Positions 2,438-62,040 of a DNA stretch of 64,000 nucleotides are shown one piece after another. The notes below the pieces were generated by a model. The model did not search any database, was not told the origin of the DNA, and saw only the letters and a program-made list of their open reading frames with translations. A program made the position numbers and the translations under genes. The number at the start of each line of letters is the position of its first letter. The stretch's first letter is position 1. Location: the NCBI RefSeq assembly GCF_000211835.1, contig NZ_AEGR01000056.1, forward strand, positions 62,001 to 126,000, written 5' to 3'. This DNA is from Hylemonella gracilis ATCC 19624 (GTDB lineage Bacteria; Pseudomonadota; Gammaproteobacteria; Burkholderiales; Burkholderiaceae_C).

Positions 2438-4381
<1,944 letters not shown>

Positions 4382-4948: not shown

Positions 4949-5644
4949 TCACAGGCTGGGCGGGGCGATGCCTTCGCTCTGCCGCCAATCACGCAGCAGG
5001 TCCAGGCGGCGGCGCGGGTAACGGGCTTCCAGCACGCGCGGCGCGCTGATGCGGTCGGTGCGGAAATGGCGGAAATCGTTGCGCGTCTCGCACCAGGCGA
5101 TGAGCACGCTGACCTGTTCGAAGAAGCCCAGCGCGCACGGCCACACGGTGCGCAGCGACGCGCGCTGCTGCGCGTCCAGGTAGTGGAACTCCAGCTTGCG
5201 TTCCTCGCGCAGGGCCTGGCGCGTGAGGGCCAGCACCTCGTCGGAACACGCCACCGTCTGGCGCGGGCCGACCAGCAGCGCGCTGTGCTCCAGCGTGTAG
5301 CGCAACTCCGGCGGCAACACCGCCGATACCTTGGCCAGGGCCTGACCCGCGGCATCGGCCAGGCGCGCATCCACCCGGTCCGCCACCCAGCGCACCCCAA
5401 GCACCAAGGCCTCGATCTCCTCGGGCGTCAGCATCAACGGCGGCAAGGTGAAGCCTGGGCGCAACACATAACCCAGACCGGCCTCGCCCTCGATCTGCGC
5501 ACCTTGGGACTGCAAGGTGGCAATGTCGCGGTACAGCGTGCGCAGACTCACCCCCAGCTGCTGCGCCAGCGCCGCGCCGCTGACAGGCCGACGGTGGCGA
5601 CGCAATTGCTCCATCAGGTTCAGCAGGCGTTCGGCGCGGGACAT
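4949..5644 (-). CDS. YafY/WYL-type transcriptional regulator
   Basis: 231 residues. Residues 1-55 are a DeoR/HTH_11-like winged helix with Q-Q-L-G-V-S-L-R-T-L-Y-R-D-I, the recognition helix. From about residue 130 the WYL domain is visible: the family W-Y-L is here F-H-Y-L-D-A, and a C-terminal F-R-T-D-R-I segment matches the conserved F-R-x-D-R-I motif. WYL domains bind small ligands or nucleic acid. The VOC gene follows on the same strand. The start is the first ATG of the frame and gives a complete HTH. Confidence 0.88.
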   Translation of the reverse strand: MSRAERLLNLMEQLRRHRRPVSGAALAQQLGVSLRTLYRDIATLQSQGAQIEGEAGLGYVLRPGFTLPPLMLTPEEIEALVLGVRWVADRVDARLADAAGQALAKVSAVLPPELRYTLEHSALLVGPRQTVACSDEVLALTRQALREERKLEFHYLDAQQRASLRTVWPCALGFFEQVSVLIAWCETRNDFRHFRTDRISAPRVLEARYPRRRLDLLRDWRQSEGIAPPSL

Positions 5645-59102: not shown

Positions 59103-59120
59103 ATGAAGAAAACACAATGA
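59103..59120 (+). other. Possible five-codon leader ORF coupled to the Cache-CheW gene
   Basis: ATG AAG AAA ACA CAA TGA, preceded at 9 bases by the strong ribosome-binding site AGGGGGG (59087-59093). Its TGA overlaps the ATG of the next frame at 59117 (ATGA). It could be chance, but it offers a way for ribosomes to reach a start that otherwise lacks its own site. Confidence 0.25.
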
Positions 59121-61924
59121 ACAAAGAGAAGACGAAGCTGCAAACCGACATCTACCTGCCCTACATGCGTGACGTCGCGCGCTGCGAGCAATCGCTGCGC
59201 GAACTCAACCAGATGTGGCGCATGATCGAATCCTCCGCCAAGATGAATTGCCCCCGCGAGGCACAGACCATCCTGCCCATCATGGCCGCCACGCGGGCCG
59301 GCTTCGGCAGGCTTGAGCAGGAACTGGTGGACAGCCTGGCGGGCGAGAAGGTGGCCAACGTGCTGGCCGCCATCGGGGCCAAGGCGCACTACGTGATCGA
59401 CATCATGGTGCGCAACCTCTACGAGCGCACCGCCGACGTGGGCTTCCTCGCGACCGACCGCGAACTGTGCGCCTTCGTCGCGTCGGCCCAGCAGTCCACG
59501 CAGGGACCCGACGAAGACGCCATCGACGCCATCCGCGCGCGCCTCTTCGCCTACCGCAGCAAGTACACCGTCTACGACGAAATCATGTTGCTTGACCTGC
59601 AAGGCAATGTGCTGGTGCAGCTGGACCCGGAGTCTCCCGTCGAGGGCAGCAGCGACGCGCTGATCGCCCGCACGCTGGAGAGCGACACCTTCGTCGAAAC
59701 CTTCCGCGCCAGCGAATTGCGCCCGGGCAAGGCGCAGGCCCTGATCTACTCGCGCCGCATGCACCACCCCGACACGGGCGCCGTGGTCGGACTGCTCTGT
59801 CTGTGCTTCGATTTCGAGAACGAGATGCGCCGCATCTTCCGCTCGCACCGCGACCCGGAAGGCCGCTCCAACATGCTGCTGCTCGATGGCGAGGCCCGCG
59901 TGATCGCCAGCGCGGACGAGCACTGGATCGCGCCCGGCACCACCGTGCCGGTCAACCTCGATGGCACGCCGCACCTGCAGATCCATCAAGGCCGCGAGTA
60001 CCTGATCCGCACCTTCCACGCCGAGGGCTACCAGGGCTACATGGGCCCGCAGGGCTGGCGCGGTCAGTTGATGATCCCGGTGGACCTGGCCTTCTCTGGC
60101 GGCACGCGCAGCACCTTGTCCTCGCTGGCCCCGGCGCAAGCGGCGGGCCTGCTGCAGCACGCGCGCAACTTCAGCCCGCCGCTGCACGAAATCATCACCG
60201 CCACCGAAACCATCCGCCGCGTGGTCTGGAACGGTCAGGTCATCACCGCCGACCAGCAAGACATCTTCGTGGACGATGGCCTGCCCAAGCGCAGGCGCTC
60301 GGATGCCAACGGCGGCGAGCAGAAGGAAAAGCTCAAGACCATCCTGGACCAGATCAGCGAAACCGGTTCGCGCAGCAACGCGCTCTTCTCGCAGTCCATC
60401 CGCGATCTCTACGAGACCGTGCTCGAAACCAAGCAGCAAGACGGTGAATTCCTGTCCCAGCTGCTGGTGGACCTGCTGGATCGCAACCTCTACGAACGCG
60501 CGGACGACTGCCGCTGGTGGGCGCTGACCGCCGAGCTGCGCACCGCCCTGGCCCAGCCGGTGGTCGCCCCAGAAGAAGCGCGCAAGCTGCATGACCTGCT
60601 GAGTTACATCCACGGCCTGTACACGGTCTACACCCAGCTCTTCGTCTACGACCGCCAAGGCAAGGTGATCGCGCGTTCACGCCGCGCGGGGGACCAAGCC
60701 CACGCGGGCGACGAATCCGTGGACGCCGCCACGCTGGCACGCGTGCGCGCCCTCAAAGACGATCAGGCCTACCACGTCAGCGCCTTCGAGCCCACGCCCT
60801 TCTACGGCGGCAAGCCCACTTACATCTACCACGCGGCCGTGAGGGCGCCCGCGCCAACGGGACAGAACGGCGCTGAAGTGGCCGGGGAGGTGGTGGGGGG
60901 CATCGGCATCGTCTTCGACGCCGCCACCGAGTTCGAGGCCATGCTGCGCAGCGGCTTGGCACAGCGCCAAGGCCAGGGCTACTTCACCAGCCGCGCCGGG
61001 CGCATCATCGCCAGCACCGACCCCGCGCATCCGGTGGGTGAGCGCCTGGACGACCCCGCCCTGCTCGCCTTGCTGCGTGAACTGGCCAAAGGCAAGAGCA
61101 TCTCGCGCATCGTCGAGCACGACGGGCACTACGCCGTGCTGGGCTGCGCCGCCGGCCAGGGTTACCGCGAGTTCAAGGTGAGCGACGGTTACGAGGAAGA
61201 CGTGCTGTCCGTGGTCTTCCAGCCCCTGGGCGCGGTGCAAAGCCATGGGCGCTCGCAACGCGCGGACCAAACCATCGAAGGCAGCGGCTACGGCGGGGAC
61301 GGACGCCAGCGCAAGACCTACGCCACCTTCCACTGCGGCGGTGACCTGCTGGCCCTGCCCGCCCTGCATGTGGTGGAGGCCCTGCCCGCCAGCGCGCTTT
61401 CAGCCCGCATGGGCAACGGCGGCCCCGCCATGGGTTCGGGCTCGGGTTCGGGCAACGTCACGGGTTCAGGCGCAGCCAGCCGAGGCAAGAGTGGCACAAA
61501 TGGCACAAGTGGCCCGAAGTACCAAGGCCGCATCGGCATGCTGGCGCCGCAGGGCAATGACCGCATCGGCCACTTCGTCTGGGTGTTCGACCTGTCCTGG
61601 GTGCTGCACCAGCGCCCCGGCACGCTGGACGACAACAGCCAAATCATCATCGTGCGCCACGGCCTGCACACGGCTGGTTTGCTGGTCGACGGCCTGCACG
61701 CCGTGCCGGAGTTCGGTGACGAGCAGCTGATGCCCTCGCCCTTTGGCGCGGAGCAGAAGCTGATGAGCCACTTCATCCGCGCCAACGGCGGCAACCTGCT
61801 GATCCAGTTGCTGGACCCGGCGGCCCTGCTGGCGCGCGTCACCAGCGGCGCCACGGAACCGGCCACGAACCGCACGGATGCGGCCAACATCGGCACCGGC
61901 AAGGACCTGGCGCGCGCGGCTTGA
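59117..61924 (+). CDS. Soluble tandem-Cache protein with C-terminal CheW domain
   Basis: 935 residues from ATG 59117, or 953 from 59063. No signal peptide or membrane helix is seen, so it should be cytosolic. Two related sensor units are present: N100-L-Y-E-R-T-A-D-V-G-F with Y150-T-V-Y-D-E-I-M-L-L-D, and N457-L-Y-E-R-A-D-D with Y502-T-V-Y-T-Q-L-F-V-Y-D; the rest of each looks like a Cache/PAS-type fold. From about 733 the sequence is CheW-like, with V-F-D-L-S-W-V-L and H-T-A-G-L-L-V-D-G-L-H-A-V-P; a Gly/Ser/Thr-rich insert is at about 765-798. It probably links a small-molecule signal to a CheA complex. No other che gene is in the window. Confidence 0.8.
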   Translation: MNKEKTKLQTDIYLPYMRDVARCEQSLRELNQMWRMIESSAKMNCPREAQTILPIMAATRAGFGRLEQELVDSLAGEKVANVLAAIGAKAHYVIDIMVRNLYERTADVGFLATDRELCAFVASAQQSTQGPDEDAIDAIRARLFAYRSKYTVYDEIMLLDLQGNVLVQLDPESPVEGSSDALIARTLESDTFVETFRASELRPGKAQALIYSRRMHHPDTGAVVGLLCLCFDFENEMRRIFRSHRDPEGRSNMLLLDGEARVIASADEHWIAPGTTVPVNLDGTPHLQIHQGREYLIRTFHAEGYQGYMGPQGWRGQLMIPVDLAFSGGTRSTLSSLAPAQAAGLLQHARNFSPPLHEIITATETIRRVVWNGQVITADQQDIFVDDGLPKRRRSDANGGEQKEKLKTILDQISETGSRSNALFSQSIRDLYETVLETKQQDGEFLSQLLVDLLDRNLYERADDCRWWALTAELRTALAQPVVAPEEARKLHDLLSYIHGLYTVYTQLFVYDRQGKVIARSRRAGDQAHAGDESVDAATLARVRALKDDQAYHVSAFEPTPFYGGKPTYIYHAAVRAPAPTGQNGAEVAGEVVGGIGIVFDAATEFEAMLRSGLAQRQGQGYFTSRAGRIIASTDPAHPVGERLDDPALLALLRELAKGKSISRIVEHDGHYAVLGCAAGQGYREFKVSDGYEEDVLSVVFQPLGAVQSHGRSQRADQTIEGSGYGGDGRQRKTYATFHCGGDLLALPALHVVEALPASALSARMGNGGPAMGSGSGSGNVTGSGAASRGKSGTNGTSGPKYQGRIGMLAPQGNDRIGHFVWVFDLSWVLHQRPGTLDDNSQIIIVRHGLHTAGLLVDGLHAVPEFGDEQLMPSPFGAEQKLMSHFIRANGGNLLIQLLDPAALLARVTSGATEPATNRTDAANIGTGKDLARAA

Positions 61925-61958
61925 ACACCCGCAGTAAGGAGGCCGGGCGGCAGCCCAG

Positions 61959-62002
61959 GCGAGAGGCCGGATGAGAGAATCACGGCCTCTCGCTTCTTTT
62001 TC
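61959..62002 (+). terminator. Rho-independent terminator after the Cache-CheW gene
   Basis: GCGAGAGGCCG (61959-61969) pairs perfectly with CGGCCTCTCGC (61983-61993) around a 13-base loop and is followed by TTCTTTTTC. queA therefore needs its own promoter or read-through. Confidence 0.87.
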
Positions 62003-62040
62003 TTGAACCCTTGGAACGGGCCCGTCCGGCCCTCAAGCCC

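Follow-up and report, generated by a model that had tools for sequence, protein, structure and literature searches.

CheW is chiefly known as a passive adaptor and Cache chiefly as an extracellular sensor, with 78% of Cache domains confidently predicted to be extracellular according to one published account (PMC4822843). The nearest characterised precedent for linking CheW to a cytosolic sensor of small molecules is CheWS of Treponema denticola, in which CheW is joined to an S-adenosylmethionine-binding, CheR-like domain. Its authors present it as the first CheW-fused chemotaxis sensor to be characterised and reported, and they also count 30 undescribed CheW architectures, 12 of them with signal-input domains (PMC10653840). 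Here we describe a gene in a 64,000-nucleotide stretch of Hylemonella gracilis ATCC 19624 (contig NZ_AEGR01000056.1, positions 62,001 to 126,000; the whole stretch is called the window, and coordinates count from its first letter) whose 935-amino-acid product consists of two dCache domains followed by a C-terminal CheW domain. This order may be among those 30 architectures (PMC10653840).

The reading we favour, at a probability of roughly 0.6, places the protein in the cytosol as a soluble sensor docked on chemosensory arrays, where it would act as a modulator rather than as a standard scaffold. This reading is consistent with the three predicted folds, the conservation of and selection on CheW, the co-occurrence with CheA and flagellin, the relatives with receptor tips and the CheWS precedent. 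An original prediction, made for this stretch from the sequence alone, had called the sensor wired to chemotaxis, and the CheW fold, selection, co-occurrence with CheA-type kinase and flagellin genes, and receptor-tip relatives point the same way indirectly. Since soluble dCache sensors are joined to CheW, internal state probably adjusts swimming direction. Two intracellular Cache domains coupled to CheW in a widespread protein suggest that array-bound adaptors, and not receptors alone, can sense internal metabolism. The protein would join CheWS as a second kind of sensor fused to CheW, and it occurs in culturable genera (Herbaspirillum, Comamonas, Methylotenera, and Acidovorax). Apart from CheWS, we found nothing relevant on cytosolic Cache domains or Cache-CheW fusions in the literature searched, which covered few subscription journals.

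Each of the known systems shares part of this architecture. Like CheWS, the window protein fuses CheW to a cytosolic small-molecule sensor; however, in the published description the CheWS sensor is C-terminal and CheR-like, whereas the window protein has two N-terminal dCache domains and belongs to a family whose CheW mostly lacks the Arg62 motif. No CheR match was obtained in the window protein (Pfam, E value of 1 or better) or among 20 family members. The CheW coupling protein (PF01584; structures 2ch4_W and 2qdl) has the same fold, domain length and Glu38 equivalent, but the CheW domain described here ends a 935-residue sensor, does not keep the Arg62/N-x-R-G turn and contains an inserted disordered loop. 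CheV also combines CheW with an input domain, and it carries a receiver domain, for which neither the window protein nor the 20 members gave a match. The dCache_1 sensors DctB, rpHK1S, PctA, and Tlp3 share the double-lobed fold (Z scores of about 14 to 18), whereas the dCache domains of the window protein are cytosolic and in tandem instead of extracellular between two membrane helices. Finally, short soluble methyl-accepting chemotaxis proteins (MCPs) from plasmids of Methylobacterium, Caballeronia, and Paraburkholderia and from genomes of the phylum contain a related dCache domain with the motifs DRNLYER, RWWA, and YTVY and are tied to chemotaxis by an MCP tip, but they have a single dCache domain and an N-terminal MCP hairpin in place of the C-terminal CheW. 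Thus, the window protein is distinct from canonical CheW, CheV, CheA, MCP, and CheWS and is built as a CheW-fused sensor.

Domain architecture

The reading frame is open from 59063 and ends at 61924 on the + strand, and the likely start at 59117 agrees with the relatives L007 and L008 (L, G and C are our handles for loci, genomes and contigs). AlphaFold2 modelling of the full-length protein, with 63 relatives as input, gave a mean predicted local distance difference test score (pLDDT) of 84.4 and a predicted template modelling score of 0.78, with N-terminal helices leading into the first dCache domain. At an E value of 1 or better, the Pfam matches of the window protein were limited to dCache_1 and CheW, and no receiver, Hpt or HATPase domain was matched at that threshold. 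Structure prediction and domain search, both proposed at the outset, confirmed the order dCache, dCache, CheW, as follows.

59117 to 61924, + strand: dCache-dCache-CheW gene, 935 amino acids (open reading frame list, start fitted to relatives, full-length AlphaFold2 model)
59273 to 60091, + strand: dCache domain 1, residues 53 to 325; a long first helix and two PAS-like lobes (AlphaFold2)
59411 to 59437, + strand: motif RNLYERTAD in dCache 1, residues 99 to 107; invariant at 8 of 9 positions across alignment A3 (64 sequences)
60092 to 60310, + strand: largely helical connector, residues 326 to 398 (AlphaFold2 secondary structure)
60311 to 61234, + strand: dCache domain 2, residues 399 to 706 (AlphaFold2, structural match, Pfam dCache_1)
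60479 to 60508, + strand: motif DRNLYERADD in dCache 2, residues 455 to 464 (alignment A3); common to the MCP-tip proteins
61307 to 61846, + strand: CheW domain, residues 731 to 910 (PF01584, fold match, profile search)

The original prediction had noticed two internal Cache-like repeats. When residues 1 to 395 were aligned locally with residues 396 to 720, the score was 108, far above 500 shuffles (mean, 36; standard deviation, 5.7; maximum, 64), and the internal repeat is therefore real. The first 390 residues, folded alone, aligned with the DctB sensor 3by9_A at a VIA-align Z score of 17.8 (222 aligned residues, 2.9 Å, model range 75 to 323), and dCache 2 reached a Z score of 16.2 with both 3lif_B (235 aligned, 3.4 Å) and DctB 3e4o_A (216 aligned, 2.7 Å). 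Since each half matched a whole double-Cache fold, the repeats are, in these models, complete tandem dCache domains and not single Cache units; the pLDDT dropped to about 60 at residues 381 to 400. At the profile level, dCache_1 matched residues 482 to 647 in the dCache 2 region, and both halves matched it over the same profile stretch. The score of the window protein (39.2 bits) was below the Pfam cut-off of 45, as was that of its own-genome paralog (32.7 bits), whereas the relative L173 was above it (64.2 bits); all 20 members of alignment A1 had dCache_1 at an E value of 0.001 or better. Within the second motif, R456, L458, E460, R461, and D464 were invariant in A3, and D455, N457, and Y459 were nearly so.

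Neither a membrane helix nor a receptor hairpin, the two features that would have counted against the original prediction, was found. The highest 19-residue Kyte-Doolittle mean was 1.51 in the window protein, compared with 2.77 to 2.85 in three receptor loci of H. gracilis, which rules out a membrane helix and a membrane or periplasmic location; maxima among six long family members ranged from 1.48 to 2.04, with L212 at the top. A receptor hairpin within the protein was likewise ruled out, with no MCPsignal match listed in 20 family members at an E value of 0.001.

The CheW domain and its proposed action

The C-terminal CheW domain, also part of the original prediction, was recognised independently by profile and by fold. 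Pfam PF01584 matched residues 818 to 907 with 44.7 bits against a cut-off of 23.5, and the modelled domain aligned with Thermotoga maritima CheW (2ch4_W) at a VIA-align Z score of 16.4, with 138 of 139 residues at 2.5 Å. A family profile built from 104 C-termini retrieved CheW 2qdl from the PDB at an E value of 2.4e-19, followed by weaker CheW entries, with CheA at about 1.3e-3 only. The window protein failed the NCBIfam model for full-length CheW (equivalog NF007903), scoring 14.1 bits where 260 are required. The 104 C-termini came from 108 distinct proteins, from which three without CheW and L074, cut by a contig end, were left out. The survey of domain order in related genomes bore out the architecture: PF01584 was found at an E value of 0.01 or better in 103 of the 104 C-termini and at 0.001 in 18 of 20 whole proteins, and the three relatives without CheW lie outside the window's order. 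Purifying selection acts on the CheW part, with ratios of nonsynonymous to synonymous substitution rates (dN/dS) of 0.155 and 0.110 against two close relatives. Two features within the domain are of particular concern here.

61376 to 61378, + strand: codon of Glu754, equivalent to Glu38 of Escherichia coli CheW; Glu in 94 of 104 family members
61418 to 61516, + strand: disordered Gly/Ser/Thr-rich loop inserted in CheW, residues 768 to 800, pLDDT below 50

The Glu38 equivalent was thus Glu in most of the family, compared with 25 of 25 CheW-type loci. These comparison loci were picked without a motif filter, an earlier canonical set having been picked by N-x-R-G and therefore biased. In the sequence alignments the loss of the N-x-R-G turn is clear: a similar turn was found in 8 of the 104 family CheW domains, and Gly was present in all 25 CheW-type loci. 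Judged from the same alignments, the family CheW is mostly without the Arg62 motif of canonical CheW, in which Arg62 and Glu38 form a conserved pair. For the E. coli CheW mutant R62A, the published report describes near-normal binding and impaired chemotaxis (PMC3828127). The loop insertion was seen, among 20 aligned rows, in the window protein only, with a shorter form in L007 and L008.

In the mechanism that we propose, long helices would allow the protein to dimerise, and a small metabolite of the cytosol would bind to one or both dCache domains. The CheW domain would dock on the P5 domain of CheA, on a neighbouring CheW or on receptor tips, which would hold the sensor at the array's cytoplasmic face, where ligand binding would alter kinase output. 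With the Glu38 equivalent retained and the Arg62/N-x-R-G turn mostly lost, docking would be expected to occur without locking receptor and kinase in their usual geometry, and the protein would then be a modulator or a partial competitor of CheW. The missing Arg62 gives a clear prediction of how the sensor acts on the kinase. The original prediction had a signal fed directly into the receptor-kinase array; since this CheW is mostly without the Arg62 motif, such a feed may mean modulation rather than ordinary coupling.

Chemotaxis genes, relatives and competing explanations

The family was counted in two genome sets. Of the 399 genomes in the window's order, which we took as Burkholderiales from its named members, 49 gave near-full-length sensor matches; this survey used a sensor-only profile, so that the 49 were counted on their sensor part. 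Altogether 56 genomes matched, and the 7 with part of one sensor only were counted as family negative. The frame in G620 was 633 amino acids only, and the other 48 were at least 838. A CheA-type kinase, detected as an H-kinase_dim match, was present in 48 of the 49 family genomes and in 238 of the 350 others (Fisher p = 8e-7, uncorrected for kinship). In a set of 100 relatives, 16, own genome included, had a whole-protein match, and all 16 had flagellin (59 of the 84 others) and an H-kinase_dim match (67 of 84). H. gracilis itself has CheA and CheW on contig C24, another CheW-domain protein on C87, and a 321-amino-acid protein with a CheW match that was judged by eye to be CheV. The genome gave 44 MCPsignal matches, of which 42 exceeded the cut-off. 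Named carriers, taken from the best 80 among the matches listed, include Herbaspirillum, Noviherbaspirillum, Herminiimonas, Rhodoferax, Hydrogenophaga, and Curvibacter, as well as Acidovorax, Comamonas testosteroni, Methylotenera, Azospira, and a Methylococcaceae bacterium. Outside the class, G1156 has the CheW form too, as judged by eye.

Related sensors occur behind MCP hairpin tips. A search of plasmid proteins returned 8 matches with a query coverage of at most 52%, among them annotated methyl-accepting chemotaxis proteins of 341 to 344 amino acids; the three that were read are short MCP-type relatives, with an N-terminal hairpin tip and a single C-terminal dCache domain that shows the motifs DRNLYER, RWWA, and YTVY. 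In the phylum survey, 38 of 398 genomes had a match. The hairpin tip was present in 27 of 27 shorter proteins read (3 from plasmids and 24 from the phylum survey, the latter being part of the shorter matches there), in 21 by pattern and in 6 by eye, and 3 of the 27 were scanned with Pfam. The hydropathy maximum across the 24 was 1.59. In a tree rooted on the MCP-type rows, these rows formed one side of a branch with a support of 100. Thus, a dCache domain with the same motifs carries an MCP tip elsewhere and CheW here, and related cytosolic dCache domains therefore join chemotaxis proteins by two routes. A tentative extension, which we hold to be possible but doubtful, is that there is a distinct class of cytosolic double-Cache domains, marked by (D/V)RNLYER and devoted to feeding intracellular signals into arrays through either of two couplers. 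One would be a short MCP hairpin, found mostly beyond the window's class, and the other a divergent CheW without Arg62, found mostly within the window's order; in the latter form, docking as a non-locking CheW would let the sensor gate array output.

The MCP-tip proteins are soluble and chemoreceptor-like, about 300 to 440 amino acids by longest frame, and their domain order is the reverse of that of a usual receptor; the frames are at 3025 to 4050 in L206, 2830 to 3864 in L207, and 2797 to 3903 in L208, with shorter frames in L214 to L221 and L223 to L238. MtpA, a cytosolic formaldehyde receptor of Methylobacterium, was considered as a relative and not adopted; it was set apart by its published description, in which an MCP domain only was detected (PMC10613068).

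Several observations weigh against a sensor attached to chemosensory arrays. The Arg62 equivalent was Arg in 16 of 104 family CheW domains and in 25 of 25 CheW-type loci, the family count being approximate since the loop around this position is hard to align. Within the window the gene is unlinked to che genes, and at 13 of 73 loci the nearest gene belonged to a GGDEF-EAL cluster (formed by BLAST linkage), which could point to another pathway. The CheW of the own-genome paralog L023 is strongly diverged and below the Pfam cut-off (20.8 versus 23.5 bits), and 3 of the 108 distinct proteins, from G178, G348, and G390, stop directly after the second dCache domain. The top-scoring dCache structures lie within about 1 Z of one another, so that fold neighbours name no ligand, and a ligand class taken from them (dicarboxylate or amino acid) was dropped. 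Additionally, family genome G500 (94% complete) has no CheA-type match, G093 has a weak ChpA-like match only, G620, G650, G710, and G802 have middling matches only, and G620 shows no flagellin. As for the proteins without CheW, the three formed one group (support 98) nested among CheW-bearing rows, although the branch that nests them is less certain (support 85). Because of this nesting, a loss of CheW in the three is more likely than ancestral absence.

Among the competing explanations, the one that survives best is that the sensor serves a type IV pilus chemosensory (Pil-Chp) or other non-flagellar array, and we consider it unlikely. G093 and G004 carry the gene with only weak H-kinase_dim matches in very long frames (2,098 and 1,945 amino acids), which we take to be ChpA-like, and the CheW-domain protein on C87 lies beside an MCP in what is presumably a Pil-Chp-type cluster. 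However, 48 of the 49 family genomes of the order set have flagellin, G093 included, and 43 have a strong H-kinase_dim match (E value below 1e-15); flagellin is likewise present in G004, a genome of only 93% completeness.

We judge improbable a metabolite sensor that is linked to the turnover of cyclic diguanylate (c-di-GMP) and whose CheW mediates protein-protein docking away from any array. Such a role would fit the mostly lost Arg62 motif, the three relatives without CheW and the 13 loci just mentioned, in five of which (L049, L053, L076, L079, and L087) the GGDEF-EAL gene runs in the same direction and either reaches into the family start or stops no more than about 12 bases from it. In those five, the gene directly upstream suggests, at the sequence level, an operon tying the sensor to c-di-GMP. 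Six members of the GGDEF-EAL cluster were scanned, four of them among the 13 (L049, L059, L076, and L079), and all six carry GGDEF and EAL. However, GGDEF-EAL genes are common, the nearest gene is outside that cluster in 60 of the 73 loci, and the window itself has recG and queA; the strong co-occurrence with CheA-type kinases and the related dCache domains behind MCP tips also argue against this explanation. The least probable explanation, that CheW is a decaying remnant and the protein works through its dCache domains only, could draw on the faster change of CheW than of the dCache domains in distant orthologs (48% versus 72% and 60% in L010), the sub-threshold CheW of the paralog and the nested CheW-less relatives, but it sits poorly with a CheW that is recognised in nearly all C-termini, predicted as a complete fold, as conserved as dCache 2 in the closest relatives and under the selection described above.

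Neighbouring genes, second copy and minor observations

In the window, the gene is flanked by the divergent recG upstream and by queA downstream, and the genome's remaining CheW and MCPsignal matches (E value of 0.001) all fall outside these 64 kb, in keeping with the original description of a gene that stands alone beside queA and far from che genes. A terminator of its own had also been proposed and is supported by RNA folding, although a consensus scan restricted to loops of up to 8 bases found none on the gene's strand. The 81 bases after the stop codon (61925 to 62005) had a fold energy of -39 kcal/mol (z score, -3.6), with a hairpin at 61957 to 61995.

61957 to 62005, + strand: terminator-like hairpin and T-rich tail (RNA fold of 61925 to 62005; missed by the short-loop consensus scan)

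Carriage of the gene as phage or plasmid cargo was rejected, with no phage match and only partial plasmid matches. Among the gene clusters found around at least 4 of 80 named loci, no recurring che operon was seen; the flanks were not domain scanned as a whole. A receptor-like cluster (8 loci, by eye) adjoins the family gene in L086, L090, L093, and L113, or 4 of 73 loci.

The second copy in the genome, L023 (G000:C92, 1471 to 4320), encodes 949 amino acids with 31% identity over the whole alignment and sits between aspS and a dihydroneopterin triphosphate diphosphatase gene. The frames that end after the second dCache domain are at 5007 to 7031 in L173, 2 to 2005 in L174, and 5240 to 7366 in L175; the three genomes belong to the class but not to the order. 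In G028 (C1, 903930 to 906473), the family gene is split over several frames with an internal stop, as a broken gene or through sequencing errors. Row L017 of alignment A7, in a wrong frame, was ignored.

An upstream protein of about 250 to 285 amino acids recurs in L043, L047, L048, L050, L055, L056, L058, L061, L063, and L101, mostly in Oxalobacteraceae, and a Pfam scan of the one in L050 gave no match at an E value of 0.01. The five co-directional GGDEF-EAL genes are at 3695 to 6004 in L049, 3657 to 6002 in L053, 3638 to 5974 in L076, 3674 to 5965 in L079, and 3728 to 5962 in L087; those of L049 and L053 overlap the family start. In L054, L057, L059, L060, L062, and L077, mostly from Methylotenera or Methylophilaceae by name, the nearest upstream neighbour is a divergent gene of the same cluster, and the one that was scanned, in L059, has the order PAS-GGDEF-EAL.

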